Source: Ulota crispa (lineage: Eukaryota > Streptophyta > Bryopsida > Orthotrichales > Orthotrichaceae). From it: 64,000 bases of DNA. A program made the translations under genes and the position numbers. The notes beneath the pieces are model-generated. The model had not been told where the DNA came from and searched no databases. It saw only the letters and a list, made by a program, of their open reading frames with translations. Below are positions 4,488-52,966 of the stretch, piece by piece. Numbering within the stretch: the stretch's first letter is position 1; the number at the start of each line of letters is the position of its first letter. The stretch is taken from assembly GCA_963920765.1 (NCBI GenBank), contig OY987243.1, positions 9,672,001 to 9,736,000 on the forward strand, written 5' to 3'.

Positions 4488-4520
4488 GGGTGTAGCACGT
4501 GTTTGTGCTTAACGCCTTAA

Positions 4521-4591
4521 CTCTTAAATACCTGAGGTACCAAATTTTGGTGGTCTTTATATTAGAATTTGGTGCCTCATGCATTTAGGGG
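4521..4591. mobile_element. 71-bp TTAA palindromic mini-element (CCCCTAAATGC family)
   Basis: Starts CTCTTAAATACCTGAGGTACC after TTAA (4517-4520) and ends GGTGCCTCATGCATTTAGGGG before TTCA (4592-4595), a one-base variant of TTAA. It is almost all inverted repeat. The ends match the larger element at 43359-44244 (AATTTGGTGCCTCAGG...), so it looks like a deletion derivative of that family. Confidence 0.65.
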
Positions 4592-4603
4592 TTCACCCCT
4601 TAA

Positions 4604-4963
4604 CCCTTAAACGCTGCGCTGGTCATCATGACCAACCCGGCTTCAGTTCTCACTACAATAGCAGCAAGTGCCCACGTTATAAGATTGTTTCCTAAAGTTG
4701 CAAAAGTCAATAGAGCATGGTGCCCTCATGAAAATTGCAAAAAGGGCAACTTGGAACCTAACACTGTGTCTCTGAATCTTCTCACAATTTGGGTTACTAA
4801 AAATATGAGTGCATCTAATGAAATATTTTTTTGTATTCCATGATGGATCATGTGTTTACGATCACTTTTAGAAAAAAAGCAAATGAAAAACAGCTTTTTC
4901 TCATAGTATAGAATCTTTTTAGGAGCTTGAGGACAAAAAACGTCCTTCTCGGCGTTTTAAGGG
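4604..4963. mobile_element. TTAA element with CCCTTAAACGC ends
   Basis: Bounded by TTAA at 4600-4603 and 4964-4967. The termini CCCTTAAACGC and GGCGTTTTAAGGG are inverted. A 71-aa open frame at 4628-4843 has no recognisable domain and is probably chance. Confidence 0.7.
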
Positions 4964-4967
4964 TTAA

Positions 4968-5184
4968 GGATGTTTCTTATCAAAAGAGTTGGTTGTATTC
5001 ATACAAGGACCATTTAACACTTGAAGGAAATGGTTTTATAAACGTCAAAAATCCTCAAAAAATCCTCAAAAAATCCTAATTGATCATTAGCATGTCTATG
5101 ACTTGGCTTGAAATTAACAACTCCAATGGGATTCATGTGCTACCCAAGTGCCCCATCTGTACACAACACAAGAGAGCATAGGGG
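4968..5184 (-). mobile_element. TTAA element, CCCCTTAAGGATGTT family, copy 1
   Basis: Lies between TTAA at 4964-4967 (shared with the previous element) and 5185-5188. It is inverted relative to copy 2 at 6925-7380: both hold the block CACTTGGGTAGCACATGAAT and the block ACCATTTCCTTCAAG in the same order when one is reverse complemented. The GGATGTT end has lost its CCCCTTAA tip. Confidence 0.65.
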
Positions 5185-5226
5185 TTAATGCATCTTTGCT
5201 ATTGCAAGAATACTTCATTTATTCTT

Positions 5227-5546
5227 GGGGAAATTACAAATAGGGGCACAAAAATGAAAAATTACATATAGGGGCGCAGTTTCAAAATAAGTACAAACAG
5301 GGGCACAATTTCAAAATCCCTTTACTAAAATTTCCTAATTCAAACTTAATTTGGAGAGGCCTTTAAGTTTTTTGAAGTTTAGCTAACATTTAATGTAATG
5401 TATCTAAATCAGCCAATGTCCAAACCAAAAGTTTACAAGAATTTACAAAAAAAAAAAATGAAACTATGCCCGTTTTTGTAATTATTTGAAACTGTGCCCC
5501 TTTCTGTAATATTTTTCAATTTTGTGCCCCTATTTGTAATTTCCCC
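5227..5546. mobile_element. Palindromic MITE, GGGGAAATTACAAATAGGGG ends
   Basis: Left end GGGGAAATTACAAATAGGGG and right end CCCCTATTTGTAATTTCCCC are inverted. The interior has a second matched pair, AATTTGGAGAGGCCTTTAAG and similar. Related copies lie at 5721-6155 and 31899-32880. No open reading frame. Confidence 0.75.
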
Positions 5547-5720
5547 TTTATTCTTTGATTTTGTATAGTCTAGAATTAATTTCAAATTTTACATTTCTTC
5601 ATATTTGATTCATTTTAATCTCCATTTTTACTAATAATACTTTTTTATTTTTTCTATTTTTTATTTCAACAACTTTTTGAATAGAACCTCACAGTTTTAC
5701 TGTTTCTTTGTTTTCATATA

Positions 5721-6917: not shown

Positions 6918-6924
6918 ACATTAA

Positions 6925-7380
6925 CCCCTTAAGGATGTTGTTGTTTTATATACGCTCTCTCATGTTGTATACAAAAGAGGCACTTGGGTAGCACATGAAT
7001 CCCATTGGAGTTGTAGATTTAAGCCAAGTCACAAACATACTACTAGTTAATTAAGATGATTTAGGAAATTTTTGCTCATTTGGAAAGGATCAAGTAAATT
7101 TAATATATGGACAAAGTTTATTGCTAAAGTTCAAAAAGTTGTTACATATGAAACTCTTGTAGGCACCAATTTAGCATTTTTTCTTTGGAATTTTGGAATT
7201 TTTATCTTGTTCAAAAGAGCTCAAGAGTAGGTACCAATAGATAACAAAATCAAATTCATAACTATATACCACGTTTCTCAATAGACTTTCATTTGTCATA
7301 AAACCATTTCCTTCAAGTAGTGCTAAATGGTCCTCAAATGAATCATGCTAGCTCTATTGGTGGTCAACATCCTTAAAGGG
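6925..7380 (+). mobile_element. TTAA element, CCCCTTAAGGATGTT family, copy 2
   Basis: A clean copy: TTAA (6921-6924), CCCCTTAAGGATGTTG, interior, CAACATCCTTAAAGGG, TTAA (7381-7384). Length is 456 bp with no transposase frame. Copy 1 at 4968-5184 is inverted and about half as long. Confidence 0.75.
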
Positions 7381-7384
7381 TTAA

Positions 7385-8740: not shown

Positions 8741-8754
8741 CATGGAGAAGACAG

Positions 8755-9998: not shown

Positions 9999-10035
9999 GG
10001 ATCCTCGACGAGCAAGTTGCGCCACACTTGAAATC

Positions 10036-12079: not shown

Positions 12080-12083
12080 TTAA

Positions 12084-12983
12084 CCCTTTAAAGATCACAC
12101 ATATTTTCACAAAATCCACAAGAAACCAAAGTAGTAAAATGAAGTGTGTAGTTGAATCAAATGTGGACCTAGTTTGAATAATCCAATTGCATAAATGGGA
12201 ACAACATCTTATGTACTATAAATTGTCAAAATTTCAACTAGACCTACCGTTGGAGGTGAAATACTATATTGATTAAGTGAGATGTAGGTGGAAAATCTCT
12301 AGTTTTTCATGCTTGCGTGGTTTTGGATCTTACTACTTCATACAAGCTTTGTTTGAGAAGAGCCTTATATTTCTAGAAAGGAGGGTTTCCCACCTTTCCA
12401 ACAAGACTAGGTTTACACAAAATGGATAAAAATAGCAATCACAAGGTGTAGCTAAGTGGACAAAAATGGTCAAAAATCCCACTTTATTTGCTACCCTAAA
12501 ACAATTTTACAAGAAACTTGATAAATGCTATGGAAAATCCAATCAATGAAAACAATCAAGAATTTCCCTTAAATGTGGGATGACAATTTTTAAACATGAA
12601 ATGATAGCACCATTTCAATAGATCTTCAAATACCATAATTATACTACTACTATATAGAGAAACAATACAAGCGTATTTCTTAAGCAATTTGAAAAAATTT
12701 AAGACCTGAACTGTGGCATTCTTGTTGGATGTTTGATGTATTGTGTTGTTGCTTTGATCCATCTTTGACCAAATATGGGCACGTACTTTGAGGTCATGTT
12801 GTATAAACACCATTATTTATCAATTCATATACCCAATTCCAATGTTGTTTTTTTGGTTGGATGCAAAATTCTTGTGACCACTTATGTTCTTCAAGAGCAA
12901 TTTCCAAGTTGTTGAGTAATTTTATGCTACATGCTAAAAATCACTTTGTTGAACCAAAATATGGTTTGGCGGTCTCTAAAGGG
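12084..12983 (+). mobile_element. 900-bp TTAA element, CCCTTTAAAGATCAC family
   Basis: TTAA (12080-12083), CCCTTTAAAGATCACAC ... GGCGGTCTCTAAAGGG, TTAA (12984-12987). Internal landmarks such as CACCATTTCAATAGATCTTC and GTTGTATAAACACCATTATT recur in 17403-18295 (same orientation) and 23837-24741 (inverted). No transposase frame: non-autonomous. Confidence 0.8.
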
Positions 12984-13055
12984 TTAAGGAACAGCCAATG
13001 GTTGTTGAGGAACGAGACCCCACACAATCCTAAAAGGCATTCAACTTAGTGTTAA

Positions 13056-13572
13056 CCCCTAAAGGACCAATTGCCCCCTCGGGGGACAACTCGGATTTTG
13101 GGCATGTACTTATAGCTTAATTACTTTGTATGATTTTTTGAAATTTTTATGGAAGATGAGGAATTCAAAAATCTACATGGGCATCTAACTTTTTCTTCAT
13201 TCCAATATTTATTGAAGAGAAACCACACCTACCCGCAAACAAAAATTTCTCATAGCTTTCATCTCATCAATTGAAATTGAATGATTCAAAGCTCCCCACC
13301 TATATATAAGTCTAAAGAACCTATTCCATATTTTTATTTAAAAATCAATCAATTAAAAAAAAATTGAACTGTCCGCCCTCCCTTGTTTTCCATATTTTCA
13401 TTTTCAACTTCTTCAATAAATATTGGAATGAAGTAAAAATTAGATGCTCATGTAGATTTTTGAATTCCGCATCTTCCATAAATACTTCAAAAAATCATAT
13501 AAAGTAATTGAGCTAAAAATACATGCCCAAAATCCCAACTGTCCCCTGAGGGGGCAATTGGGCCTTTAGGGG
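13056..13572. mobile_element. 517-bp TTAA fold-back element, CCCCTAAAGGACC family
   Basis: TTAA at 13052-13055 and 13573-13576. The two arms match for about 175 bp: CCCCTAAAGGACCAATTGCC, then GATTTTGGGCATGTA, GAATTCAAAAATCTACATG and CATTCCAATATTTATTGAAG on both strands. Each arm equals the GGACAA/TTGGGCATGTACC terminus of the 0.93-kb elements (for example 33631-34571), so this copy is one terminus present twice head to head. Confidence 0.85.
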
Positions 13573-13576
13573 TTAA

Positions 13577-16904: not shown

Positions 16905-16908
16905 TTAA

Positions 16909-17398: not shown

Positions 17399-17402
17399 TT
17401 AA

Positions 17403-18295
17403 CCCCTTAACGACCACACCCATTTTCACAGAATCCACTTTTTCAGGGGCTGTAAGCTTAGATTTGGAATTGACTCAAATATGGACTCATTTTCAATAAT
17501 CCAAACGTACAAATGGGAAGTACACCTTGTTCATTTTAAAGTACCAAAATTTCAGTTAAATCTACTGTTGGAGGTGAAACATTATAATGATTGAGTGAGC
17601 CGTATATGGAAAATCTCTTGTGTTTCATTCTTGTTTAGTTTTGAATGTTAACATTTCATGCAAGTTTTGATTGAGAAGAGCCTTACATTTCTAAAAAGCA
17701 GGGTTTCCCACCTTTCCAACAAGACTAGTTTCACACAAATTAGACAAAAATAGCAATCACGAGGTGTAGCAAAATGGACAAAAAGGGTCAAAAACCCCAC
17801 TTTCTTTGCTACCCTAAAATGGTTCTACAAGAATTTTGATAATTATTTTGGAAAATCCAATTGGTGAAAACAATCAAGAATTGGCCTTAAATGTAGGATG
17901 AGAAATTTTAAAGCCAAAATGACAACACAATTTTAGTAGATCTTCAAATACTACAATTATACTACTACCTTATATGAAAACAATACAAGCGTATTTCTTA
18001 AGCAATTTTGTGCAATTGAAATTTGACATTCTTCTTGGATGTTTGATGTATTGTGTTGTTGCTTTGATCCATCTTTGACAAAAAAAAAAGATACGCATTT
18101 TAAAGCCATGCCATATAAACACCATTATTTATCAACTCACATACCCAATTACATTGTTATTTTTTTAGGTGGATGCAAAATTCTTGTGATCACATTTATA
18201 CTTCAAGACCAAATTCCAAATTATTGAGCAATTTCAACCTAAAGGCCAAAAACCACTCCTAGTAACCAAAATATGGTCACGTCGTCCTTAAAGGG
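17403..18295 (+). mobile_element. 0.89-kb TTAA element, CCCTTTAAAGATCAC family
   Basis: TTAA (17399-17402), CCCCTTAACGACCACACCC ... GGTCACGTCGTCCTTAAAGG, then TTGA, a one-base variant of TTAA. Collinear with 12084-12983 over most of its length (TTTCCCACCTTTCCAACAAG, TTGGATGTTTGATGTATTGT). Confidence 0.75.
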
Positions 18296-18310
18296 TTGAG
18301 GCAAAGTTAT

Positions 18311-20910: not shown

Positions 20911-21305
20911 AGGTAGCAGCATCCATAAGCGTTGCATTCCCATGTCCGTCACTTGACAGTGGCACGGCTAATTAATAGAAAAAACAAATGGTTGTGGGTG
21001 ACTAAGTGATGGTTATGGGTGATGAAGTGGTGGTTGTGGGTGACTAGCATGAAGTTTTGAGTACCTATCTCACTATTTAAGAACCAACAAGCCTTGTTTT
21101 TAGCATCTCTTACTCATGGTTCCTACAATTTCAGTGATTTTGGACTTTGAAAAATCTTTGTGAACAAATGCTTGCAGTTGATCCTTGAAATTGATACCAA
21201 TATTTTTGGTTTCCATTTCCTAACATATAGTATTTTTTTCAAAGGTAGTCAATTATTTTACCTACTCCAAAACCCTTATTTCCACGCTTATGGGTGCGCC
21301 TACCT
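20911..21305 (-). mobile_element. 395-bp TA-flanked MITE (AGGTAG...CTACCT), copy B
   Basis: Inverted, near-identical copy of 15546-15940: AGGTAGCAGCATCCATAAGC ... GGGTGCGCCTACCT. The left TA (20909-20910) is intact; on the right it is TG. It abuts the TTAA-type element at 21309. Confidence 0.85.
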
Positions 21306-21308
21306 TGA

Positions 21309-21951
21309 CCCCTAAATGCCCAAGGCCTTTTTGAACTTCTTGGCATTTTTAGGAAAGTGAACAAACAATCAACCTTTCATACACCTCATCAAGTTTTTTT
21401 AAATTGTAACCGTACAAATTTAAACTTGACATGTTAGAAATTACATGGAAAAAGAAAACACAACAATATCACTTATAATTTGAAAAATCATAATGTTTGA
21501 ACATGAGGGTGTTAAAACCGTAAAAGTGACTTGAAGTCTTCTAATCCTCATTTCACATTTCAAATCTAAAAAGTTGGTCTTCAAAAAAATATGAGGTTTA
21601 AGGTCATTACATGTTTAACCTCAACCAATTTACAGCTTTCAAAATTTACTCCTACATTTTTTTTAAATGGATTTCTAATGTGGATTTTTCTCCAAGCTCT
21701 AGTGTATTTGAGGCTCATTTTCAAAATCTTCCAACACTAGAAAACTCAAGATTGCAATGGACACCCTTGTACAAAATCTTGAATAAAAAATCATGAACAT
21801 TCATTTTCAAAATCAGATTTTTGATATTAAAAATAGACTTCAAAACAAACTTGTGTTAAAAAACAAATACCAAAAATAGTGATTTGATAAGATTTTATTC
21901 GTCTTCAAAGTTTTGCAAACACCCAAATTGGGTGCCTTGGGCATTTAGGGG
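21309..21951 (+). mobile_element. 643-bp TTAA element, CCCCTAAATGCCCAAGGC ends
   Basis: Left CCCCTAAATGCCCAAGGCC after TTGA, right GGTGCCTTGGGCATTTAGGGG before TTAA (21952-21955). Terminal inverted repeat of about 18 bp. No transposase frame. Confidence 0.75.
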
Positions 21952-22181
21952 TTAAATTGTATTGGAGTACACTTTCTGCAATGAGGGAAACCGTTTACAT
22001 TTCTTTGGATGGAAGCTGGTGCCTGGTGCTAAATAAATGAGATCTGGAAAATGAAGAAAAAGTACAAAAAAGTGTCCTCTTTTGACATTTAGCATTTTTC
22101 CTTTCGCTGGGGGGTGGGGAAATATCCCAGAATATGAAAGAGCCACGCGCTACTAAAGATTCTTTAACTGACTATTTTTAA

Positions 22182-23832: not shown

Positions 23833-23836
23833 TTAC

Positions 23837-24741
23837 CCCTTTAAGGACGACGTGACCATATTTTGGTTGCTGGGAGTGGTTTTTGGCCTTTAGGTTGAAA
23901 TCGCTCAATTATTTGGAATTTGGTCTTGAAGTACGCATGTGATCACAAGAACTTTGCATCCATCTAAAAAAATAACAATGCAATCGGGTATATGAGTTGA
24001 CAAATAATGGTGTTTATATGGCATGGCTTCAAAATACGTATCCATTTTTTGTCAAAGATGGATCAAAGCAACAACACAATACATCAAACATCCAACAAGA
24101 ATGTCAAATGTTAACTGTGCAGTCCTAAAAAATTTCAAATTCCTCAAGAAATATGCTTGTATTATTTCTCTATACAATAGTTTTATAATTGTAATATTTG
24201 AAGATCTATTGAAATGGTGCTATCATTTCATGTTAAAAATTTGTTGTCCTCCGTTTAATGCCAATTCATTATTGTTTTCACCAATTGGCTTTTCCATAGC
24301 ATTTATCAATTTTCTTGTAAAATTGTATTTGGGTAGCAAATAAAGTGGGATTTTTGACCCTTTTTGTCCACTTAGCTACACTTTGTGATTGCTATTTTTA
24401 TCCATTTTGTGTGAACCTAGTCTCATTGGAAAGTTGAGAATCCTTGCTTTTTAGAAGTATAAGGCTCTTCTCAAACAAAACTTGTATGAAGTAGTAAGAT
24501 CCAAAACCACACAAGCACAAAAACTAGAGATTTTCCACTTACAACTCACTCAATCATTATTATATTTCACCTCCAACGGTAGATCTAGTTGAAATTTTGA
24601 TACTTTATCGTAAATAAGGTGTAGTTCCCATTTGTACAGTTGGATTATTGAAATCATGTCCATATTTGATTCAACCGCACATCCAAGTTTACTACCCCGA
24701 TTTCTAATGGATTTTGTGAAATTTGTGTGGTCTTTAAAGGG
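23837..24741 (-). mobile_element. 0.9-kb TTAA element, CCCTTTAAAGATCAC family, inverted copy
   Basis: CCCTTTAAGGACGACGTGACC ... GTGTGGTCTTTAAAGGG, TTAA (24742-24745). It is the reverse complement arrangement of 12084-12983 and 17403-18295. Both neighbours abut directly: the left junction shares TTAC, the right one shares a single TTAA. Confidence 0.8.
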
Positions 24742-24745
24742 TTAA

Positions 24746-30943: not shown

Positions 30944-30947
30944 TTAA

Positions 30948-31850: not shown

Positions 31851-31898
31851 TTAAACCCAATGAGGAAAGTTATCTTCTTTGATTGTATGGCAAAAGAA

Positions 31899-32880
31899 GG
31901 GGAAATTGCAATTAGGGCCATGGAAACAAAAAATATTACAAGTAGGGGCACACTTTCAAAAAAAACTTGTAAATCTTTGTAATTTTTTTGGTTTGGACAT
32001 TGGTTGATTTAGATACATCAGATTACATGTTACCTAACTTCCAAAAAAAATTAAAAGTCTCTCCAAAAATTGCCATCTCCTATACATTTAGGCTTGACTT
32101 GGAGAGACGTTTAACTTTTTTGGAAATTAGTTAACCCCTAAATCCCTAAGTGTCCCCTTGAGGGACAAATGAGATTTCAGATAGGTACCTATGGCTAAAC
32201 TACTTTGTGTGATTTTTTGAAACTTTTATGGAAGATGGGGAATTCAAAGATCCGCGTGTTATTATTATTATTATTTTTTCATTTTGACATTTTTTGAAGA
32301 AGTAAAAAATGAATTTCTGAATTTTTTTAGAGATGGGGCAATCTGGGTGAGCCATATCTACCAATTAACTAAAGGTCCTCATAACTTTCATTTCATTTAC
32401 TTGAAATAAGTAATTCAAAGCTTCCCATGTATATATAAACTCAAAGAACCAATTTCAGATTTTTATTTCAAAAAAATGTAAATTTTAAAAAAAATTGGGC
32501 TGCCCAGACTGCCCCATCTCCAAAAAAAATCAGAAATTCATTTTTTACTTCTTCAAAAAATGTCAAATGAAAAAGAAAAAAAAAGACGTGCACACGGATC
32601 TTTGCATTCCCCATCTTCCATAAAAGTTTCAAAAAATCACACAAAATAATTTAGTCATAGGTACCTGCCCAAAATCTCATTTGTCCCTCAAGGAGACACC
32701 CAGAGATTTAGGGGTTAACATTTGATGTGATGTATTTAAATCAACCAATGTCCAAACCAAAACAAAATTACAAAAATTTACATTTTTTTTTTGAAACTGT
32801 GCCCTTGTTTGTAATTATTTTAAAAATGTGCCCCTATTTGTGATATTTTTGGTTTTTATGTCCTTATTTGTAATTTCCTC
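31899..32880. mobile_element. GGGGAAATT... palindromic MITE split by a TTAA element
   Basis: Left GGGGAAATTGCAATTAGGGCC, right TGTCCTTATTTGTAATTTCCTC. The two halves match 5227-5546 and 5721-6155. The centre is interrupted at 32131 by the element 32135-32714. Confidence 0.75.
32135..32714. mobile_element. 580-bp TTAA fold-back element nested in a MITE
   Basis: TTAA (32131-32134), CCCCTAAATCCCTAAGTGTCC ... ACACCCAGAGATTTAGGGG, TTAA (32715-32718). Long arms pair almost to the centre (GAAACTTTTATGGAAGATGG, CATTTTGACATTTTTTGAAG, GAATTTCTGA). Like 13056-13572 it is one terminus present twice head to head. Confidence 0.85.
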
Positions 32881-33630
32881 GCAAAAGAAAAGAGAAAATA
32901 ATATCAACTTGATGGAAACAAAAGGGTTATCAAGAGCTAGGAAAATTGTAGAGTACCGACAGTACGTTTAGAGTAGAAACAATTTCTTTTACTACTTTTG
33001 CCGCATGGATTGAGGTTAAAAAAAGATAGCTGCATTTTTGTTGGTAACCGCTATTAAAGGTGTTGCCATAAAATGAGGGTGGAAAAAATGGAATGGAACA
33101 TGAAAACCATAAAGCAATTGGAGCAATGCAATGCCAAATGTGCAGTGTAGGATGGCTAAGTGCAAATCCTTTGAATCTAAGGCAGTACGCTCGAAAACCG
33201 CCCATCTAAGGGCTCAACCCTCTTTTTCATGGTCTTCCATGGATGGAAGGATTTTTAGTTCATTTTTCAGACAAAGAGAAATAGATGCTGAATGCAACAT
33301 AAGTTGTTTCATATCTTTTGAAGTATTTTTGAGTTACTTATGGATTCTCAAAGTGAGTTATTTATGAATTCTCAAAGTGCATGTGTCATATGTATCTATT
33401 ATTAACCTTAGATCTTCCAAGAACCATTCACTTGCAAGTTGTGAAGAGATTTGAAGAAGCAAGGAGAATGATTGGCTCTTGCAATTAAAATCAAATTTTC
33501 TTCCATGCATTCAATGAGTTGTAAGAGGTTAATGTAAGAACCACTAGTGCACCATTTCACAACAAACTACTAGATGGTTCAAAATGAGCGAACGGTTTTT
33601 GAGCGTACTACCTTACTACAACATTATTAA

Positions 33631-34571
33631 CCCCAAAAGGTCCAAACCCTTTTTTTTGTGAAAGTCTTTGAAAACTGCCACTATTTGGGGAATGAGTAAA
33701 AAGGTAGGAAAATTTGTTTTTTTTGGAAATCCAACTGTAGGATCTTGTCCTAGACTATGGGAGGTACATGTTGGAAAAAAAATCAGCTCATTCTAGAGGT
33801 AGACAAATGAGGTAATGACATCCAAAGTTTTAAAAAAAAGTTTTTTCCCTGCTGCCCAAGAATTTCAAAAGCCTTTGACAGCTCCTATATCAAAAAAATT
33901 GCTCTACAAAAGTTGAGGTATATTTTTTCCATGTAGACGACGAAGTTAGGTAAGTGTGGGAGAATTTTTAAATGAATTGGAGGTGTGAATCATATTTTGT
34001 AAAATCTTGCAATGCCATATGGTCATGAAATTTGCATAAAGACTAGGCAAAATTGGAGGATTTATGTAAAAATTTAGAAATTTGAATTATAGTGATCCAA
34101 ATGGTGAAAACTAAGGAATCTTAGTCTACTACAACTTGGGAAAAACATAAAGTCAAAAAATACATACATAAATTGCTCAAAAAAATAAAGCATCAAATTT
34201 TACAAGGGGCAAAAGGGATGGAGGTTTGGGAGTCCCATACCTTACTAGCAAACCAAAACTTGCCACTCATCAATCAAGATTGAATGATTCAAAGCTTCCC
34301 ACATATATGTAAATCTAAAGAACCAATTTCAGATTTTTATTTTTACAAAATGCAATTTATATTTTGGATGCCTGACTCTCCCCTACTTTTCAATTATTCG
34401 TGCATAACTTCTTCAATACTTCTTGGAATGAGGAAAATATTAGATGCCCATGTAGATCTTTGAATTCCCTATCTTATGTAGAAGTTTTAAAAAATCACAC
34501 ATAATAGTTTAGCTATAAGTACATGCCGAAAATCCCACTTGGTCCCCAGGGACCACTTGGGCCTTTAGGGG
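33631..34571 (+). mobile_element. 0.94-kb TTAA element, CCCCTAAAGGACC family
   Basis: TTAA (33627-33630), CCCCAAAAGGTCCAAACCC ... TTGGGCCTTTAGGGG, TTAA (34572-34575). Collinear with 15970-16904 and 37366-38335 (GGAGGTTTGGGAGTCCCATA, ATGAATTGGAGGTGTGAATC). No transposase frame. Confidence 0.8.
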
Positions 34572-34625
34572 TTAAATCAATAACAGCAATGTGGCTAAAG
34601 CAATTTGACCCATCTGAAGCTTTAA

Positions 34626-36519
34626 CCCCTCATTGCCTGAGGTCCAAAGATGCTTCACCCCTAAAGGACCATTGTCCCCATGGGGGACAAATGAGATTTT
34701 GGGCAGGTACCTACGGCCTCAATTTTTGTCTTAACTTTTTGAAACTTCTTTTGGAAGATAGAAAAACACATTAGCTTTTGGAGAATCTAATTTTTATTCC
34801 AATTGATGCCAAAGAGCAAAAGTTATGCCCAAATAAGCACAAATTTGGGGACTAGGGGCAGCAAAAAAAATTCTTATAAAAACTTGAAAAAAAAAAAAAA
34901 AAAATTCCTATAGATTATATCTTTGTCTACATCTAAAGCTTTGGTTCATTCCATTTGGACTAGTTATGAGAAAGTTATGGACAATCTTGTTTTTTGGGCA
35001 ACTCAAGCATCTTCTTGAAAAAATAACTTATAAACTTCATTTTTGAATGCAAGTTTAACATTTTTTTAGAAAAAATTGTTGTAAAGGGAGAAGTTTGCTT
35101 TCTAGAACAATCTCACCATTGGAATTATTGCGTTTCACTTCCATTGTAGGATTTTTAGCAATTTAAGTTTTTGTTCAATCTCATACCTTCTTCTACCTAA
35201 TGTTTTTTTAAAGAATGAAAATTAAGTATTCTTTTTTTAAATTTTTTTGCAAGAGTCCCAATTCAACTTCCCACCATGCAAAAATGGAATTCCAAACTCA
35301 GTGGTGCAAAAGTTTTAAGTTAAAAATGTTCAAAGTCAAATAGTCTAGTCAAGCAAGGTGCAAAAAAAGTTTTTTATACACTTTAAATGCATATATCTTC
35401 CAATCTGTGCGGCCAAAGTTCTTGAGTTTTGTATGACACATTTTTATAATAGTCCTGCACAAGATCCTACAATCAAATATGAAAAATGCATGATTTTCAA
35501 ACTTTTTTACTTTTTGCCATAGAGGTGGCAGTTTTGAGTGTCTTTTGACAAAATAAAGGCCATGGTCCTTTGGGGGTTAACAACCTCTCTGCCTTTCAAG
35601 TGTTGTAATTCTAAACCTCAATAAAGCATGCAAATCTCAACTGTACAGTCTTGTAGTGTGCTTGTTGTAGATCATGTTGATGAAATTTAAGGTCATTTGA
35701 CCACATAGATTGAAAGATTATAATGTTTTAGTGTTGTGAAAGATGCTGAAATTTTCCTAAAAACACATTTGGAGATGAGTTTTGGTTTCTAAAATTGCTC
35801 AAATGAAAAAATTCAAAATACAAAGTGGTTCAAAACTAGTATGCATACACATTGGTGGAAACAAAATTACTCAAAAAAATCATTGTGTTTGCAACATTGT
35901 TTTGAAATGTCAAAAAACAGCAAAAAAAGTAGCAAATAATCACATCTATGGCTAAACCTCCCTCTACTAAAATGTTTTTCATTCACTCATAACTTCTTGG
36001 TTTGATATGAAATTTTAACAACAACAACTAGACTAGTATGCGCAACTTTTTCAACAAAAATTATTGAAAACGGACATTGTATGAAGAAGTTATAAGCCAC
36101 CAAAGCTCACAACAACAACAAAATGTGTGAATTTTGAACTTTGAGTTGCTCCCAAACATTAAAAAAAACTTGGATTGACATAAAAATTCTACTACAATTA
36201 GTAGACTTTAGGGGGAACAAGAACCAACAAATTTTATCAAAAAATACATTTGATGAAAAAGATACAATGAGCTCCCAAAGTTGCAGCCATAACAATGCAC
36301 AGTGGTGAACTTAAATTAAACCTATAAACTTTCAATGACTTTAACAATTGAATACATCTCAAATTGATCTGAAATTTTCACTATAGAAACTAGATTAGTC
36401 TTTGCAACTTTACCAAGAAACTTTATTGGATTCAAAATATTGATGCAAAAGTTAAAGCACTTTGAATTATGCTGATAGAGTGCTAGAGGACACATTTCGT
36501 CCCCTTTGGCAATGAGGGG
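34626..36519 (+). mobile_element. TTAA element, CCCCTCATTGCC family, with nested insert
   Basis: TTAA (34622-34625), CCCCTCATTGCCTGAGGTCC ... TTTGGCAATGAGGGG, TTAA (36520-36523). Minus the insert it is about 1.0 kb and matches 41666-42633 in reverse. Interior words include CTCCCAAAGTTGCAGCCAT and AACTAGACTAGTATGCGCAA. Confidence 0.8.
34658..35576 (+). mobile_element. Nested 0.92-kb TTAA element, CCCCTAAAGGACC ends
   Basis: TTCA (34654-34657), CCCCTAAAGGACCATTGTCC ... CATGGTCCTTTGGGGG, TTAA (35577-35580). Inserted only about 30 bp inside the left end of 34626-36519. Contains a 20-base A run near 34888. Confidence 0.8.
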
Positions 36520-36759
36520 TTAAGGAAAATAGTGGAGTGAAGTAGTTTGACTTTAGTTCAAGGTAAAACACAAAAACGTGACTTGATTTAAAATACACTT
36601 AACAATAAGGTTTAATTTTTAAAGGTTGTGTAGACTAGGCTAGTTACAAAAGTCTCAAGATCATCATGTTACAAGCAACTTTAGCTACCAAGATAGGATT
36701 CTTGTTTTTTTTGCATGTCTCAAACAATAAGGCAATGTTAGTGTTGCATGTAGACTGTA

Positions 36760-41265: not shown

Positions 41266-41665
41266 TAGAAATAAATGAAAATGTATCATCAATATGGATT
41301 TGTTTTTGAGCAACATGACATATTTTTGGAGCAATACATTAGTACAAGCAAAACTTCCTATAAGGTAGGAGGTTCTAATTTGGACTAGGCATTTTGAATT
41401 GACCATGTAGGATCACAAAAACAATGCACATATGTTCTTACATGAGTCACATTTTTTTATGTTCATAAATTGTACTTGTGCGTGCACTATTTTAGAACCT
41501 CAAGAGAGTGACATGAGCCACTATTGTGTGTGCTTATCGGTCTTAATTGTGTTCAAATTTGTTTATCAATAAAATATAGATACATGTCATACTAAAATAA
41601 ATGAGAACTTGTTTATAGTCATAATTTGAGTATTAGAATATGGAATGGGTGCTTGCACGCTTTAA

Positions 41666-42633
41666 CCACTCATTGCCTCTGGGGACGGAAACTGCCCTCT
41701 AGCAATCCATACCTCCTACTTGAAGTGATGTAACTTTTGCCTTTACTATTCAAAGCCAATAAAATTTGTTGGAAAAGTTGGGCATACTAGTCTAGTTTCT
41801 ATGATGAAATTTTCAGATGAATCTAAGACATATTCAATTTGTGAAAGCCATTCAAAGTTCACAAGGTCAATATGAGTTCATCACACTACACCTTGATGGC
41901 TGCAACTTTGGGGGCTTGTATCTTTTTCATCAAATGTTTGTTTTCAATAAATTTGTTGGGTTTTGTTCCCCTTAAAGTATAGTAATTGTGGGAAGGTTTT
42001 CAAGTAAATCCAAGTTTTCTTGAATGTCTAGTAGCAACTCAAAGTTCAACAAAACACACATTTTTGCATTATAGTGAACTTTAGCGGCTTATAGCTTCTT
42101 CATTGAAACTTTGTTTTCAATATTTGCTATTGGAAAAGTTGCGCATACTAGTCTAGTTATTGTGGTTCAAAATTTCATATCAACCCAAGAAGTTAAGAGT
42201 GAATGAGAAGCATTTTAGTAGAGGGAGGTTTAGCCATAGATGTGATTTTTTGCTATTTTTTTCACAATTTTTGGACATTTCAAAACAATTTTGCAAACAA
42301 AATGAGTATATTGATTGATGTTTTCTTTCACCAATGTGTTTGCATATTGATTTGAATCACTTTAGATATTTTTTTCATTTGAGTAGGTCCAGAAATCAAA
42401 TTTCACCTCTAAACATGTTTTTAGGAAAATTTTAACATCTTTTTTCAACACTAAAATATTTTAATCTTCCAATCTATATGATCAAATGACCCCAAATTTG
42501 ATTCACATCATCTACAACATGCACACTACAAAATTGTAAGGTTGAAATTTTCATAATCCTCTAACATTTAGATTTACAACATTTGAAAAGCAAGGAAACT
42601 GTAAACCCTCTTTGGACCTTAGGCAATGAGGGG
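41666..42633 (-). mobile_element. Nested 0.97-kb TTAA element, CCCCTCATTGCC family
   Basis: TTAA (41662-41665), CCACTCATTGCCTCTGGGG ... CCTTAGGCAATGAGGGG, TTAA (42634-42637). Inverted relative to 34626-36519 and lacking that copy's insert, so it serves as an approximate empty-site reference. Confidence 0.8.
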
Positions 42634-42691
42634 TTAAGAGCCTTATTGGAACATTCTTGACTTTGTAGTGGTTACTTTTAGGACTCATGTA

Positions 42692-44789: not shown

Positions 44790-44822
44790 AAAATCAAACT
44801 TGCGCAAACCATCTTCTATTAA

Positions 44823-45750
44823 CCCCTAAAGGCTCGTTGTCCCTGCGGGGACCGTTGGGGTTTGGTCATGCACCTATGGGTAAACTACTTTGTGTGATTT
44901 TCTGAAACCTTTGATGAAGGTGGTGAATTCAAAGATCTATGTGGGCATCTAATTTTTTCTTCATTCCAATATTTGATAAAGAAGTTATGCATGAACTTAT
45001 GAAATTTTGGGGCGGGTTGCCTAGACGGGCAGCCCTAAAACTTCTTTAAAAATGACATATTTTTAAAATAAAATTTTGAAATTGGTTCTTTAGATCTTTT
45101 CATACATGAGAAGCTTTGAATAATTCAATTTCAATTGATGACATGAAAATTATGAGGAGTTTTTGTTTGTGGGCCGTTATGGATTCTCTACTCTAAAATA
45201 AACTTTGAAGTCTTTTATTTTACTTACTTTTCAATATTTTAGGAAAAAAACTAAACCAAATGAAGTAGATTGTTTATTACAACAATATAAACGTTGGGAT
45301 TTGCATTTTTCGTTTCAATAATTAAATTCTTAACAATTTAGTGTTTTGACCCATTCTCTACTTTTTACTTACAAATATTTTCCCATGTGTTGTATAGTTC
45401 TAATTGATTTGAAAATTCTCCCACACATTCCTAACTTGGTCTTCTACATGGGAAAAAAACCTCAACTTTGCGTAGAGCAATTTTTTTGATTTAGGAGTGG
45501 TCAACGGCATTTGAAATTTTTGGGTAGTATGAAAAAAAACTTTTTTCTTCACTTCATATGTAAAAATCTCACTCCTTGTCATTTGGAATAAGCTCAAATT
45601 TTTTTCCCAAGTACCTCATGCTGTCTAAAGCAAGATCCTACAATTGGATTTCAAAAAAAAAAAAAAAAAAAACATACCATTCCTCTCATTTCCCCAAAAG
45701 TGGCAGTTTTTAGTCCATTTCACTGAAAAAATGGCTTGGTCCTTTAGGGG
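44823..45750 (-). mobile_element. 0.93-kb TTAA element, CCCCTAAAGG family, inverted
   Basis: TTAA (44819-44822), CCCCTAAAGGCTCGTTGTCC ... GGCTTGGTCCTTTAGGGG, TTAA (45751-45754). The block at 45180-45360 (GGATTCTCTACTCTAAAATA) recurs inverted in 47770-48680. Confidence 0.8.
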
Positions 45751-46086
45751 TTAAGCCAACACAAACACTGTTAACAAAAAAAATTGAAAACACAACAAAC
45801 AAAGCTGGAAAGCTCAAATCAAAGTTGAAAGAACTTGTAGCAATTAAATTAAAAATGTTAAACTAAAACATGCATGGACAAAACTTGATTTTCCAAAGAA
45901 CCATAATAAACATCATTATCATTTGTCAAATATGTATTCTACAATATAATTTTTTTATTTTAATAAAATGTACTTATATTTTGTACAAAATTAAGTCATT
46001 GCTGTTAAAGTGCAAATTTTTGGTGGATAGAAAAAAGTTGTATAACTAAATAACTATCTATACTAATTTAGATATATCCCTTTTTA

Positions 46087-47560
46087 AGGTAGGAGGCTCA
46101 TAAATTGACCATTTAAGGGAAAGATGGCATCTATGGGAAAATAAGGCCAACTTAAAAATTTGGAAATACTTTTGGTAGGAAGTCAAAGGAAAAACAATCT
46201 TATGACCATTTAAATTAATTTTTTTGAGTTGGTATGAGTTGATTACAATTTATCAAAGCAAAAGGGGCATATATAGTTATGATTTAACCCCTAAAGGACC
46301 ATTGTCCTTGCGGGGGACAAATGGGATTTTGGGCATGTACCTATGGTTAAACTACTTAGCGTGTTTTTTTGAAAATTTATTGAAGGTGAGGAATTCAAAG
46401 ATCTACGTGGACATCTAGTTTTTTCTTCATTCTCACATTTATTGAAAAAGTTATGCATGAATAATTGAAAAACAGGGGAGAATCGGGCAGCAAAAAAAAG
46501 ATTGAAATTTTTTTAAATAAGTTTTTGAAATTGGTTCTTTAGATTTTTATGTATTTGGGAAGCTTTGAATCATTCAATTTTGATAGATGAGATGAAAGTT
46601 ATGAGAAGTTTTAGTTTGCGGGTAGGTATGGGATTCCTAACCCTCCATTCCTTTTCCCCCTTGTAAAACTTGTTGCTTTACTATTTTGAGCTCTTTGTGT
46701 TTTTTTTTTTTGACTTTTTTTTTTGCAAGTTGCAGTAGATTAAGAATCCTTGGTTTTTACCATTTGGATCAAAGTAATTCGGGTTTTTGAATTTTACATA
46801 AATCCTCCAATTTTGCCTAGTGTATATGCAAATTTCATGACCTTATGGCATTGCAAGATTTTACAAAGTATGATCCACACTTCTGTTTCATTTGAAAATT
46901 CTCCTACTCATACCTAACTTGGTTTCCTACATGATAAAAAAAATCCTCAACTTTGCGTAGAGTAATTTTTTTGACATATCCTTGGTCAAAGGCTTCTAAA
47001 AATTTCAGGCAGTGAAGAAAAAAACTTTTTTCTTCACTTTGGGTGTAAATATCTCACTCCTCAACTTTTAGATTGAGCTGATTTTTTCCAAAGAAGTACC
47101 TCCCATAGTTTAGGCCAAGATCCTACGATTTGATTTTCCAAAAAAAAAAAAATCCTATTCTACCCACTCCCCCAAAAGTGGCAGTTTTACATTGAAAATC
47201 ATAGAAAAATGCCTCGGTCCTTTAGGGGTTAAAAGCAACTTGTAAATCAAGCATACAAGTTCAAAAAGCAATCACTCAAAATTTGAGAATGCTTAACAAG
47301 TCCTTTAAAGTGTGCAAGCACACATTCCATATTCTAATACTCAAATTATGATTGAAAACATCTTTCTATTTATTTTAGTATGACATACATTTATATTTTA
47401 CTCAAAGACAATTCTCAACACAATTATAACTAACAAGTACACAATTATGACCAACAAGTACACTGAGCAATAACCCTTGTCACTCTATTAAATCCTTAAA
47501 ACCGTGCATATAGAAGGACAAATTCTCAATTGAGAAAATGCGATCCATTCAAAAAACCCT
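46087..47560 (-). mobile_element. Broken AGGTAGGAGG element with nested insert
   Basis: The left end AGGTAGGAGGCTCATAAATTG follows TA (46085-46086). It is collinear, inverted, with 41363-43037 up to about 47560, where the expected CCTCCTACCT terminus is missing. Split by 46288-47228. Confidence 0.6.
46288..47228 (-). mobile_element. Nested 0.94-kb TTAA element, CCCCTAAAGGACC family
   Basis: TTAA (46284-46287), CCCCTAAAGGACCATTGTCC ... CTCGGTCCTTTAGGGG, TTAA (47229-47232). Inverted relative to 33631-34571 (TTTTGCCTAGTGTATATGC, GATTAAGAATCCTTGGTTTT). Confidence 0.8.
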
Positions 47561-47769
47561 CTACACTATTTTTGGCAATTCTACTTGAGCGATTCTAAAC
47601 GCCCAACCAAAATTGTAGCCTCATATCTTATTGATCATAAACATATCTAATTTTGTAGCTAATTTTGGCAACCAAATTGTTAGTACTTTTATACCTATAA
47701 TTTAACAATGGCATAGTGTCAACATGGAGTTTCACACATGTAGCTATGTGATTGGTTGGTCTAATTTAA

Positions 47770-48680
47770 CCCCTAAAGGACCAAGGAGAGTTTACACCAA
47801 AAATTTTCCAAGACTGTCATTTTTAGAGCATCAACCAGATTTGAAAATGAAAACATTTTATGCAAATGTAACCATAGGGCATAGGATCTTGTAGTAGGAT
47901 GGTTTTAGGAGATTTGGACAAAATTTCAGAATTTTTCACCACATGGATTGGAAGATGGAACAATTTCAATATTTAAAAATGTCTTGTGAAAATTCGGGCA
48001 GCTACCCATCAAAAAGTGAAATTTCTAAGGAAAAAAAGCCGTTGGGTGGTGCTTTTCTAGATTCCTTGTTCCACCTAAGTAGGGTACATGTTAAAAAAGT
48101 TTCAAATTGTTTGGAATTGTATAACATATGGGAAAAAAGTAGTAAGTAGAAAGAAGTAGAGAATGACTCAAAACACTAAATTGTTAAGAATTTAATTATG
48201 GAAATGAAAAATTCCAATCCCAACTAATGTTGTAATAAACAATTTATGTCCTATTGTTTTGTTTTTTTTTTCTCAATAATGAAAATTGAGTCAAATAAAG
48301 GACTTCCAAGTTTATTTTAGAGTAGAGAATCCATAACTGCCCGCAAACAAAAACTCCTCATAACTTTCATCTCATTAATCAAAATGGAATGATTCAAAGC
48401 TTTCCACATTCACATAAATCTCTTGAACCAACTTTGAATTTTTGTTTCTGAAAAAAGTGATTTTTAAAAATCTGCTTAGGCTGCACGTCGAGTGAAAAAA
48501 AAAAAATATCAGGCAATATCTTCTTATTCATAATTCAAAATGTTATGAAATTTAGTGCATATGAAAGATAAACCTTGTTCCCACATCTTGCAAAAATTTC
48601 AGCCTAAAATATGAAAATCTCCAATCATAAGTACCTGCCCAAAATAGCTATGTTGCGTAATGGGGTTGGTCCTTTAGGGG
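47770..48680. mobile_element. 0.91-kb TTAA element, CCCCTAAAGGACC ends
   Basis: TTAA (47766-47769), CCCCTAAAGGACCAAGGAGAG ... GGTTGGTCCTTTAGGGG, TTAA (48681-48684). Its middle (ACTAAATTGTTAAGAATTTA) pairs with 45300-45360 of 44823-45750, giving a mosaic relation between the two. Confidence 0.75.
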
Positions 48681-49039
48681 TTAAGAAAATTTATTTCAGA
48701 TTTTCAAAACTTTACACATAATTTTCATGCATTTATAGCTGTTTTTTGATGATTGCGGTATCTCCATAAGCAATGTCAAGTCAGTTTCAAAACTCAGAGT
48801 TTGAAAGCATTTCTAGTACCATACATATAAAAAAACACTTATCGTGCGTGGTTTTTGCTTTTGAAAATTGCATCATTAGCATTGAACTCACATTGCGCTT
48901 ATGATGCAAATTCAAAATTTGCGCTTGCAATGTGCATATGCACATGTGCACATACATGCATTTATATACATATAATATTTACGGAATTGCAAAAGCCACA
49001 TCCAAGATTTATAACGCCACACCCAAAGATGTGCTTTAA

Positions 49040-49057
49040 CCCCTCGACGCCCGAGGG

Positions 49058-49132
<75 letters not shown>

Positions 49133-49169: not shown

Positions 49170-49173
49170 TTAA

Positions 49174-51463
49174 CCCCTAAAGGATCGAGCGACCATTGTA
49201 CAGTTGGGTACAGTAATGTTACTAATTTTTTTGCAGTGAAATTTCAGCCAACTTCAGGACCTGCCAAAGGCCATAACTTCCTCAAAAAATGTCCGTTTTT
49301 GAAACCAAAAATTTTCTTGGAATATTACTGAAGGGTACTACATGATTTGATATTAAAAAATATCTGAAATTTTATAAATGATAAAAAAAATTGGGTTACT
49401 TCCTATATAGTGTACTTCCACCTCTTGCCAAAATCACCTCTTGAATTTGATTGAGCTACGCCACCACCAACGGTTAAAGAACAAGCAAGAAATGATACAC
49501 ATCATTCAAAGAGTATGGGATGAGGTATCCATGGAGCAACTAAAAACTCTTATTTCAAGTATGCCCAATCAATTCAAGCGGTGATTTCTGCAAGAGGTGG
49601 AAGTACTAGATGGTAAACACAATATAGAAAGTAGCCAAACTTTTTTATCATTTGTAAAATTTCAGTTTTTTTATTATCAAAGCATATAGTACTCTTTTGT
49701 GCAATTCCAATGCAATTTGCAATTTCAAAATTGAACAATTTTTGAGGAAGATATGGCTTCTTAAAGTTGCTGAACTATTGGCTGAAATTTCACTGCAAAA
49801 AATTTCGTAAGATTATTGTACCCGACTGTACAGTATCCCAAATGACACATACATACCTCCATGTTTTGGCAGTGAAAGAACTTGTCTAAAACTTGCATCA
49901 TAAAGGATAATTGACATTTTTTTTGTTGTGCATCACAATTCTGTGATTCTTATGCAATCCCAAACAAGCATATCAAATTTTAATTTCAGAAAACCTAAAT
50001 ATCATTTTTGATGAATTTTTTTGTATGAAATTCATAGTTTGCACATGATAATTGATTGAAAAACATTGATGATGAATTTTTGAGATTTGATTGCATGGGT
50101 GTATAGGTAGCATCCATACGCACATCCTCCATGCTAAAAATATTCCCTTAAGCAACAAAAATGTGATCTTCAAAGGATTTGGTGTGACTTGTGAAATGGA
50201 TATTTTTGTATGATAACCAGATTTTTGTATTTGACTCATACATTGTGACTAAGTTTGTGGTTTTGAACATGATGTAATGTTTACTTGGTGAAAAAAAAGT
50301 TAAAAAATAAAAATAATTATTTTACAAAATTTTGGACATATCACAAGTCACAATAAAATTGACTAAATCCTTTGAAGATCACATTTTTGTTGCTTATTAT
50401 TTTTAGCATGGAGGATGTGCGTATGGATGTCACCTATATACCCATGCAATCAAATCTCAAAAATTCATCACCAATGTTTTTCAATCAATTATCATGTACA
50501 AATTATGAATTTCATACAAAAAAATTCATCAAAAATGGAGTTTAGGTTTTTTGAAACTAAAATTTGGTATGCTTGTTTGAGATTGCATAAGAATCACAAA
50601 TTTGTGATGCACAACAAAAAATGTCAATTATCCTTTATGTTATGCAAATTAGGCAAGTTCTTTCACTGCCAAAACATGGATGTATGTACGTATCCTTTGG
50701 GGTACTATACATTACCCAAAAGAAAGAGTACATAAATCCCTCATGGCATCCAAAAAAGTTGGTATAACAAAGAATATAATCGGCATTTTATCCTCAGATT
50801 TTTTGTATGTGATCCTTGTGCAATCACAATCAAGCATATCAAATTTAAGTTACTAAAAACCAAAATCCTATTTTTGAAAATTTGTTTTGTGTCAAAATCA
50901 TAGTTTTACAAGAAAGTAGATTAAAAAACATTGGTGGTGAATTTTTGAGATTTGGTTGCATGGATATGTAGGAGACATCCATATGCACATCTTTGTTTCA
51001 AACAAACATTTCCAAAAAGTTTCAAAATTTCTTCTACAAAGATTTTAATGTTAGGGTGATCATGACCAAATTTAGTAAAACATACATTTCTTTATGAAAT
51101 CTAATTTTTGTTATTTGACACATACATTATGATTAAGTTTGTACCTTTAAACATGATGATATGTTTATTTTGCCAAAAAATAATTTATTTATAGTACAAA
51201 CTTCTTTGAATCCCATAAGAAAGACTTGTGTACTCTTTCTTTAGGGTACTGTAATATACATACTATGTATAGTGCTGTATAAGTGGTATTTGGAATGCAT
51301 CCAAACCTCTATTATATTTGATATCAACACAAAAGATAGAATAAAGATAAATGCGATTCTAGTAAACTAGTCAAGATCCCAAATCAAAACTTTTTGTTGG
51401 TAATAAATGCTAGTTATACGATAACGTACATCTACGTACAATGGTCACTTAGTCCTTTAGGAG
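49174..51463. mobile_element. 2.3-kb TTAA element with internal palindromes
   Basis: TTAA (49170-49173, shared), CCCCTAAAGGATCGAGCGACC ... CACTTAGTCCTTTAGGAG, TTAA (51464-51467, shared). Holds one inverted pair at about 49195-49480/49550-49835 (GTACAGTTGGGTACAG / GTACCCGACTGTACAG) and a second at about 49840-50330/50340-50740 (TTTTGGCAGTGAAAGAACTT / AAGTTCTTTCACTGCCAAAA). It may be an element carrying other fold-back insertions. Confidence 0.7.
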
Positions 51464-51467
51464 TTAA

Positions 51468-51693
51468 CCCTTAAAGGACGGAGCGTGCCGCTGTGACCAA
51501 TAGAATACAAGGTGTTTTTTTTGTACTTGGAATATATTCACACCTTTACTATATTTGAGATCAACAAAGAAGTTGGAGAATAGAACAAAGTGGTTCCAAT
51601 GAGCTACTTGAGATCCCAAATTAAAACTTCTTACTGGTAGCAAATACAGCTTATACAACAGCGTATATACTATGTCCTATTATCCTTTAAGGG
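51468..51693. mobile_element. 226-bp TTAA element, deletion derivative
   Basis: TTAA (51464-51467), CCCTTAAAGGACGGAGCG ... ATTATCCTTTAAGGG, TTAA (51694-51697). Most of it matches the last 200 bp of 49174-51463 (AGATCCCAAATTAAAACTTC against AGATCCCAAATCAAAACTTT) in the same orientation. Confidence 0.8.
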
Positions 51694-52051
51694 TTAAGCA
51701 TGAAATGTGAGAATTTGATGCTGATTTTTTTAATATTTGGATTAAAGGATTTGTTTCACCTTTATCATTCTTAAAGAATACTCAAAAAATTTGGAGATAT
51801 TTGAATTTGAAACTAGAAACATGGGATTTTTGAATTACTTTAAGCAAAATACATAAAAAATATAGCAATGGCGCAATAAAATTTTGAATTTGTTCTTCTT
51901 TCTTTCAAAGAGGTGGTTAATGCCATGATTGAATGAATGATGGACCACTTTTAAAAAACAGAAAAAACAACATTAAGTTCTCAAATTACATGCTCACAAG
52001 GGTGTGGAGTTAGCAATTTTGGATGTGGCTTTAGCCATTCCCTAGGTTAAA

Positions 52052-52962
52052 CCCCTAAAGGACCAAGGAGCCCACTTTGGGCTTTATGAGAATTTGGGCA
52101 GGCTCTATTAACTTCATAATTTGGAAATTTTACATGAATTTTTTAGGATGGATGCTACTCATCAAAATCTACATGTGAAGCTTTATTTCATGTCATTCCA
52201 ATAAGTAATGCATAAGTTATAAGGTTTTTTCAATTTCAATGTCAAACCAGGCAGCAAAAAAGATATTATAATTTTATTTTTTATTTTTTTATAGGATCTT
52301 TTAGATTGACACCTACTCAAAAAAAAATTGAATCACTCAATTCCAAATAATGAGGTAAGAGTTAAAAGGAGTTTTATTTTGCAAGCAATGAAGGTAGGAA
52401 GAGGGTAGAAAAAACATATAAAGTTATCTTTTACTCTCAATTTTGAAAATTTTCAAATGGAAATGAAAATTAATGTTACCAATTGTTTGTTAGAGCATTC
52501 TCACTGTTGGAATTAACAATTTTCAACTTCTTCCAAAACTTATTAGCATATTAGTTGTATTTTTCATTTATCAATACCTTTCACTTTACAATTTTGGTAA
52601 AAATGAATCCAAGATTTTTTTTGGTTAATTTTTTTTGTATATGCTTTCAACCCATTATCCAACATATTGCAATTGCACAAGAAATACAACATATGTGTTT
52701 TTCTCTAAAAAGTTTGAAAAACAAAACTCCACCTTCTAGAAGGACTCAAAAAGCCTACATTTTGAAGTTTAGGCACATCGATCTTGCAATTGGTGGGGAT
52801 ATTAATTCTGAAATTTTGGGACAATGTACTTGTGCAAGTCAACCAAAGGATCCTACGGTTGGATTTGTTAAAAAGTAAGTTTCAATGAAGATTTTGTCCC
52901 TGATTTGGAGACTAGTATTTTGAAGAAGTTTTGGGCCTCTAAACAAGAAATAATTTTAGGGG
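52052..52962. mobile_element. 0.91-kb TTAA element, CCCCTAAAGGACC ends
   Basis: TTAA plus one extra A (52047-52051), CCCCTAAAGGACCAAGGAGCC ... ATAATTTTAGGGG, TTAA (52963-52966). The right terminus is worn. Interior follows the family plan (GATCCTACGGTTGGATTTG near the right end). Confidence 0.65.
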
Positions 52963-52966
52963 TTAA

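Follow-up and report, generated by a model that had tools for sequence, protein, structure and literature searches.

TTAA-flanked inverted-repeat elements of the moss Ulota crispa are very probably non-autonomous copies of piggyBac-superfamily transposons

A stretch of 64,000 bases from the genome of the moss Ulota crispa (C2:9672001-9736000 of assembly GCA_963920765.1, cbUloCris4.1), which as a whole is called the window here, carries numerous segments that begin with TTAA-CCCY and end with its inverted counterpart. We are highly confident that these segments are non-autonomous copies, similar to miniature inverted-repeat transposable elements (MITEs), of piggyBac-superfamily cut-and-paste DNA transposons of the nuclear genome; presumably a piggyBac-type transposase moved them. 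A piggyBac-like, TTAA-specific enzyme had been put forward as mobiliser in an original prediction for this DNA. This proposal is supported by transposase domains of the PF13843 type located between such ends elsewhere in the genome, by end sequences that three of these copies have in common with non-autonomous ones and by empty insertion sites. Articles are cited below by PMC number, and what is said of them applies to the accessible parts of their texts.

Results

Terminal sequences in the window and in the genome

The window contains 46 exact termini, 20 of them TTAACCC and 26 GGGTTAA. In 50 first-order Markov shuffles the corresponding means were 6.1 (maximum 11) and 5.1 (maximum 9), that is about 11 for both motifs. 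The tighter motif TTAACCCYTNANNGNC was found 21 times in the window; in the complete 320.8 kb of sampled DNA, five Markov shuffles left 0.2 copies on average. For pairing, each end was allowed at most one mismatch to the motif, at least 13 of the 16 terminal bases had to be equal and the span had to be 180-2,600 bp. Under this rule we obtained 16 paired-end elements, which cover 12,726 of the 64,000 bases (Table 1), and the other ends of the window are unpaired or degraded. These data confirm a dense array of TTAA-CCCY inverted-repeat ends, as originally predicted, but the predicted number of about two dozen segments came down to 16. All nine coordinate pairs quoted in that prediction correspond to paired ends of ours if they are extended by the 4-bp TTAA at either side. 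Five of its six named end families are present as pairs, but CGACGCC is represented by one badly matched pair only. Two candidates were rejected as elements: the ends at 49036 (CGACGCC) and 49173 match poorly and delimit a 138-bp segment that includes a long poly-A tract, and the ends at 4600-4967 also match poorly.

The genome-wide search for such ends, which had been suggested as a check, indicated that they are abundant. We searched 274.8 Mb in 157 contigs, a set that is probably trimmed relative to the published assembly of 275.00 Mb in 408 scaffolds (PMC11803377). The general end TTAACCCYTNANNGNC was detected 42,149 times versus 92 times for the reversed control, and a 14-base end (TTAACCCCTAAAGG) 15,411 times versus once. 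The CCY terminus typical of piggyBac is thus present as CCCYTNANNGNC at 42,149 places and at the paired ends. Canonical ends reach a density of 3.28 per 10 kb in the window versus 1.53 in the genome, so that the window is about twofold enriched. In 15 ten-kilobase stretches taken at fixed round positions from the first 7 Mb of C1-C8 (L014-L028) there were 13 paired elements. Their summed length is 11,501 of 150,000 bases (one nested pair counted twice), and recognisable pairs make up roughly 7% of this sample. Among the matches listed the copies are mostly 70-88% alike, and they are therefore not young.

PiggyBac-type transposases between such ends

A profile search with PF13843 (DDE_Tnp_1_7) gave 528 candidates, 116 of which were scored. 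It yielded 120 matches at E<=0.001 (best 1.3e-73), some of them pieces of one gene, and none in 14 control genomes. No PF13843 domain lies inside the window among the matches listed from these scored candidates, in line with the earlier statement that the window encodes no transposase. When we compared two of the domains with proteins of solved structure, the piggyBac (PDB 6x67) and piggyBat (PDB 9c0f) transposases were retrieved as relatives of both L031 (3.6e-20 and 1.4e-16) and L030 (7.2e-19 and 2.5e-20). A protein search gave 19 homologues for L031 (up to 71% identical) and 42 for L030 (up to 52%), one of the latter being a fish piggyBac-derived protein. In L030 all three aspartates of the DDD triad were aligned, and we take these to be the catalytic residues. 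In other copies the triad is incomplete or changed, for instance to N at the third position in L031. In A1, A3 and L030 the domain is followed, in the same frame, by a CxxC...CxxC...CF pattern, which is partially present in L034 (A6) and L033.

Flanking ends were examined at eight transposase loci out of the 116 scored candidates. Both ends were found at six of them (A1, A2, A3, A5, A6, A1b; Table 1). At five of the eight (A1, A3, A5, A6, A1b) the PF13843 domain lies inside TTAA-flanked ends on both sides, with CCC, or a sequence differing from it by one base, next to TTAA. For A4 (L031) only the right end is visible, and at L033 the ends are incompletely covered. The search that had been proposed for a piggyBac-type DDD transposase with the same ends did not refute the prediction: the transposases located between such ends are of piggyBac type and of no other superfamily.

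For three transposase-bearing copies, terminal sequence recurs in non-autonomous elements. A2 is similar to a 930-bp element (L016, 2675-3604) at both ends, with 80% identity over 55 bp on one side and 68% over 482 bp on the opposite one, a pattern as expected of an internal deletion. The 5' end of A3 matches the window element end 36523-36488 over 36 bp (91.7%). A5 matches positions 1307-1169 of the L026 element 1169-1577 over 140 bp (70.7%), and for this L026 element a TTAA empty site was found as well. In addition, A6 shares 28 bp (96%) with a lone end in L021. As a separate observation, L020 (3616-5778) contains 2.2 kb with 75.5% identity to the interior of A5 (1263-3402), perhaps a further relic or a nested repeat.

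Pairwise identities among seven transposase domains are 30-67%, which indicates that several lineages coexist. In a FastTree phylogeny L031 and L032, whose right ends read TTTAGCGACC and TTTAACGACC, form a group with P0006, which was retrieved by the protein search (support 0.999). L033 and L034 fall together and are joined by L029 (0.998, 0.987), and L030 pairs with L035 on long branches (0.831). We read the transposase set, as judged from its sequences, as probably long-resident and diversified and not as one recent arrival.

The TTAA target

To characterise the target, 42 elements were removed in silico by joining their flanks with one TTAA, and the products were matched to the 320.8 kb of sampled DNA. 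Junction-spanning paralogues were obtained for 10 elements, and for six of these 10 informative elements at least one empty copy reads TTAA: 41662-42637 of the window, 12821-13755 and 16696-17636 of L012+L013, 1169-1577 of L026, 5388-5822 of L024 and the transposase-bearing A1. The best empty sites are those of 41662-42637, found at L013 7748-7989 (88.4%, 242 bp) and L026 1128-894 (88.1%, 235 bp), both gap-free near the junction. Two others are weaker. For 16696-17636 an alignment gap falls inside TTAA, and for A1 the left flank of the L016 match contains gaps, and TGAA is found in a second copy, in L024. A 4-bp duplication requires a gap-free junction. This was observed for six of the 10 informative elements, and three of these six read TTAA and three do not.

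Base counts at the terminal tetranucleotide give an additional line of evidence. In the genome the first base is changed (VTAA) 654 times and the second (TVAA) 679 times, as compared with 15,411 intact copies. The outer T is thus as constrained as the inner one, and a TA target is rejected. Together, the empty sites and the position counts agree with a TTAA target that is duplicated on insertion, as predicted and as in piggyBac, and the paralogous sites did not refute it.

A subterminal palindrome

We next looked for internal symmetry near the termini, with the first T of TTAA set to 0 and a palindrome defined as at least 5 of 7 complementary pairs with a centre at 26.5-29. The 76 canonical ends that carry the tighter terminal motif were assigned to 43 families according to the bases inside the repeat. 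A palindrome was detected in 14 of the 43 family representatives, about a third (null distribution from 1,000 reshufflings of the right halves: mean 4.75, maximum 12), and in 35 of all 76 ends (null 9.55, maximum 20). Centres further inward gave no clear excess over the null. Among the 16 window elements 15 of 32 ends passed the threshold, as did 2,767 of 20,000 random 60-mers. The half-sites differ (GTCCC...GGGAC, CACCAAA...TTTGGTG, AACCA...TGGTT, GGACA...TGTCC, AGGCA...TGCCT). Of the six transposase-bearing copies, four have a palindrome at the end that lies upstream of the gene, with its centre exactly at 28.0, equivalent to base 25 of the element. For A6 and A1b the left-end palindrome is below threshold, and the right ends of A3 and A6 reach the threshold at other centres. 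In an unfiltered set, 67 of 151 ends were positive in the zone 14-44 bp from the end (shuffles 25.4, maximum 36). An initial test on 79 crude TTAACCC-end representatives gave a weak result (5 of 79; null 0.97, maximum 6) because many of them are chance TTAACCC. A shifted right-end palindrome with centres at 34.5-37, considered by analogy to the longer right end of piggyBac, was unconvincing (p 0.12 for representatives, 0.026 for all ends) and was discarded.

In the solved piggyBac complex a dimer of C-terminal domains binds bp 17-33 of one left end, with a centre at about bp 25 (PMC7351741). We infer that the moss palindromes are the sites corresponding to these C-terminal domain binding sites.

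Counter-evidence and alternative explanations

Several observations weigh against the assignment to piggyBac. Most of the listed PF13843 matches contain stops, 114 of the 120 matches lie outside the flanking-end check and PF13842, the Pfam model of the piggyBac zinc finger, did not match the two cysteine-rich segments tested. For A1 and A1b no matching non-autonomous copy was found in the sample, and AAAGGACC ends did not bound a transposase at any of the eight loci (A4 and L033 being incompletely seen). Four of the 10 informative elements had non-TTAA letters only among the matches listed: 32131-32718 (CTAA/CCAA, gap-free), 34654-35580 (TTTA/CTAA), 46284-47232 (gapped) and L014 5904-6627 (TTGA/TAGA). 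We read these as later substitutions or poor alignments. In the unfiltered set a weaker palindrome excess also appears at a distance of 54-104 bp from the terminus (zone 54-84: 38 versus 29.3, maximum 37; zone 74-104: 44 versus 34.0, maximum 40). Finally, terminal inverted repeats (TIRs) of the superfamily have been described as CCYT and 12-19 bp long (PMC10175614), and a strict CCYT does not fit the commonest end, CCCCT.

Among the alternatives, the families with the highest copy number (AAAGGACC, roughly 0.9 kb) might be untied to any resident transposase and might have been moved by an extinct or cross-acting one. The six loci with both ends visible, none of which has AAAGGACC, and the divergence of the copies are consistent with this scenario. 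However, ends were examined at a mere eight of the 116 scored candidates, and the left end of A5 (TTAAGGACCG) is fairly close, with 31 of 45 bases equal to the element end at window position 13052. We consider this explanation rather unlikely, and the commonest family presumably uses a partner of the same kind.

A recent horizontal arrival of one animal piggyBac, followed by a burst of copies, is very improbable, since the seven transposases form several deep branches at 30-67% identity and the sampled copies are diverged.

Elements of the Kolobok superfamily also have a TTAA-specific duplication, so that the empty sites agree with them too, and they are known from chlorophytes and rhodophytes (PMC9587614). 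Their termini are 5'-RR...YY-3' according to the same source, but those of the moss are CCC...GGG, and for those six end families that enclose a transposase, the PF13843 domain contradicts this assignment. We thus judge a Kolobok origin to be exceedingly improbable.

Tc1/mariner-like elements with a TA target, ACCCC... termini and TTAA as mere preferred context would leave the same empty site, which paralogous sites alone cannot separate, but the chance of this is negligible, since for the commonest family the base counts refute the free flanking positions (non-T is no commoner at position 1 than at position 2) and the transposases are of piggyBac type.

Elements and neighbouring features

The elements of the window and the transposase-bearing copies are summarised in Table 1.

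Table 1. Paired-end elements of the window and transposase-bearing copies elsewhere in the genome. Coordinates of window elements include both TTAA; their strand is unassigned (.). "Ends" gives equal bases among the 16 terminal ones.
Feature	Location	Strand	Length	Remarks
Non-autonomous element, TTAAGGATGTT ends	6921..7384	.	464 bp	ends 15/16
Non-autonomous element, TTAAAGATCAC / TTAGAGACC ends	12080..12987	.	908 bp	ends 14/16; right-end palindrome AACCATATTTTGGTT
AAAGGACC-family element	13052..13576	.	525 bp	ends 15/16; 167-nt inverted arms, 91% complementary
TTAACGACC-end element	17399..18299	.	901 bp	ends 13/16; right TTAA is TCAA viewed inward
AAATGCC-family element	21305..21955	.	651 bp	ends 15/16; left TTAA is TTGA
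TTTAARGACC-end element	23833..24745	.	913 bp	ends 14/16; left end degraded
AAATGCC-family element	30944..31854	.	911 bp	ends 16/16; left palindrome CACCAAAATTTGGTG
AAATCYC-end element	32131..32718	.	588 bp	ends 15/16; 155-nt inverted arms, 86%
AAAGG-family element	33627..34575	.	949 bp	ends 14/16
CATTGCC-family element	34622..36523	.	1,902 bp	paired ends; length due to the contained element 34654-35580
AAAGGACC-family element, nested in 34622..36523	34654..35580	.	927 bp	left TTAA is TTCA
CATTGCC-family element	41662..42637	.	976 bp	ends 15/16; two clean single-TTAA empty sites elsewhere
AAAGGCTC/AAAGGACC-end element	44819..45754	.	936 bp	ends 14/16
AAAGGACC-family element	46284..47232	.	949 bp	ends 16/16; left palindrome TTGTCCTTGCGGGGGACAA
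AAAGGACC-family element	47766..48684	.	919 bp	ends 16/16
AAAGGAY-end element	51464..51697	.	234 bp	ends 15/16
Transposase-bearing copy A1	C1:30,793,800-30,799,107		5,308 bp	TTGAGGAC ends
Transposase-bearing copy A2	C2:34,593,257-34,598,762		5,506 bp	matching TTAGGGCCC (CCCCTTAGGGCCC) repeats; TTAA degraded at both ends
Transposase-bearing copy A3	C3:13,130,262-13,135,288		5,027 bp	CATYGCC ends
Transposase-bearing copy A5	C5:17,373,651-17,380,739		7,089 bp	left end TTAAGGACCG
Transposase-bearing copy A6 (L034)	C6:21,756,573-21,763,408		6,836 bp	left end differs from motif at two bases
Transposase-bearing copy A1b	C1:1,176,510-1,184,004		7,495 bp	

Other repeats are present in the window. Inverted repeats of AATTACAAATAGGGGCAC-like units at 5224-6160 and 31901-32878 represent another repeat family, and one of them hosts the element 32131-32718. 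A short inverted repeat at 6770-6920 (TGTACTGTACAGGGCATTTT ... AAAATGCCCTGGTACTGTACA) adjoins the TTAA at 6921, and a different inverted-repeat element at 49919-50621 has 224-nt arms that are 93% complementary and spaced by 255 nt. An open reading frame at 60300-60995 resembles by eye the reverse transcriptase/RNase H end of a Ty3/gypsy element and is broken by a run of N. A second one (61109-63970, minus strand, 953 aa) carries a ubiquitin carboxyl-terminal hydrolase domain (PF00443, 1.5e-32).

Discussion

Our preferred explanation is that piggyBac-superfamily transposons have moved in this genome and that the window contains their non-autonomous copies. In mechanistic terms, partners of about 5-7.5 kb elsewhere in the genome would encode a piggyBac-type DDD transposase, which would recognise the terminal CCCYTNANNGNC repeat. 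Its cysteine-rich C-terminal domain probably reads the family-specific palindrome about 25 bp inside one end. Excision would then take place at TTAA and insertion into another TTAA, with duplication of the four bases, and the enzyme presumably moved the non-autonomous copies in trans.

The moss elements resemble piggyBac of Trichoplusia ni (6x67/6x68; PMC7351741) in the TTAA target, the CCC terminus, the unequal ends, the DDD transposase (E 3.6e-20) and a palindrome centre near bp 25 of one end. They differ from it in their host, in their distant sequence and in the coexistence of several families with differing palindrome half-sites. PiggyBat, whose host we take to be a bat, likewise has a PF13843 transposase, which by sequence is the best solved relative of L030, although it is distant as well. 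At 5.0-7.5 kb the moss elements are longer than intact beetle copies (2.1-3.5 kb; PMC12732532). Angiosperm MITEs, among whose superfamilies PiggyBac is listed (PMC10004981), are likewise short and non-autonomous with the same superfamily assignment, but the moss genome itself holds transposase-bearing partners with such ends.

PiggyBac was considered rare or absent in land plants in the original prediction. "Rare" alone is the better wording, since a 2015 survey of published annotations, which includes 80 land plants, reports PiggyBac in all groups studied; the word "moss" does not occur in its accessible text (PMC4438587). A 2025 paper places the superfamily in animals, fungi and protists and mentions plants, such as red algae, only as occasional cases (PMC12732532). 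Two further articles mention plants for piggyBac without detail in their accessible parts (PMC10140906, PMC10794571), and in the fern Ceratopteris 1,230 PiggyBac-labelled fragments were reported to make up 0.00% (PMC6890710). In the accessible text of the Ulota crispa genome note the words "transpos" and "repeat" occur nowhere (PMC11803377). In a literature search judged by titles and abstract openings, no account of piggyBac elements in a moss was among the entries listed; a prior description is possible.

To our knowledge, the TIR classes of the annotation pipeline EDTA lack piggyBac. When the moss Ptychostomum knowltonii was annotated with EDTA and RepeatModeler2, TIR transposons accounted for 29.13%, with CACTA as the largest part (PMC11704416), and unrecognised piggyBac elements may be mislabelled within this fraction. 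Our broader proposal is tentative, possible but short of probable: an old and diversified piggyBac radiation in mosses may have been misfiled by plant pipelines under other TIR superfamilies, and it may have kept the palindrome geometry (bp 25) while the half-site changed. If this is true, a single genome would provide, as a natural collection, transposase C-terminal domains and the DNA recognition codes that match them.

A large piggyBac radiation in this moss is real; its kind is known, but the host and the amount are unexpected. With piggyBac ends in the tens of thousands, transposases between such ends and several transposase lineages, this moss provides a solid case on the plant side. It can supply TTAA transposases adapted to plants as well as a test set for palindrome reading by the C-terminal domain, and in its light the TIR fractions published for other mosses seem worth re-examining.

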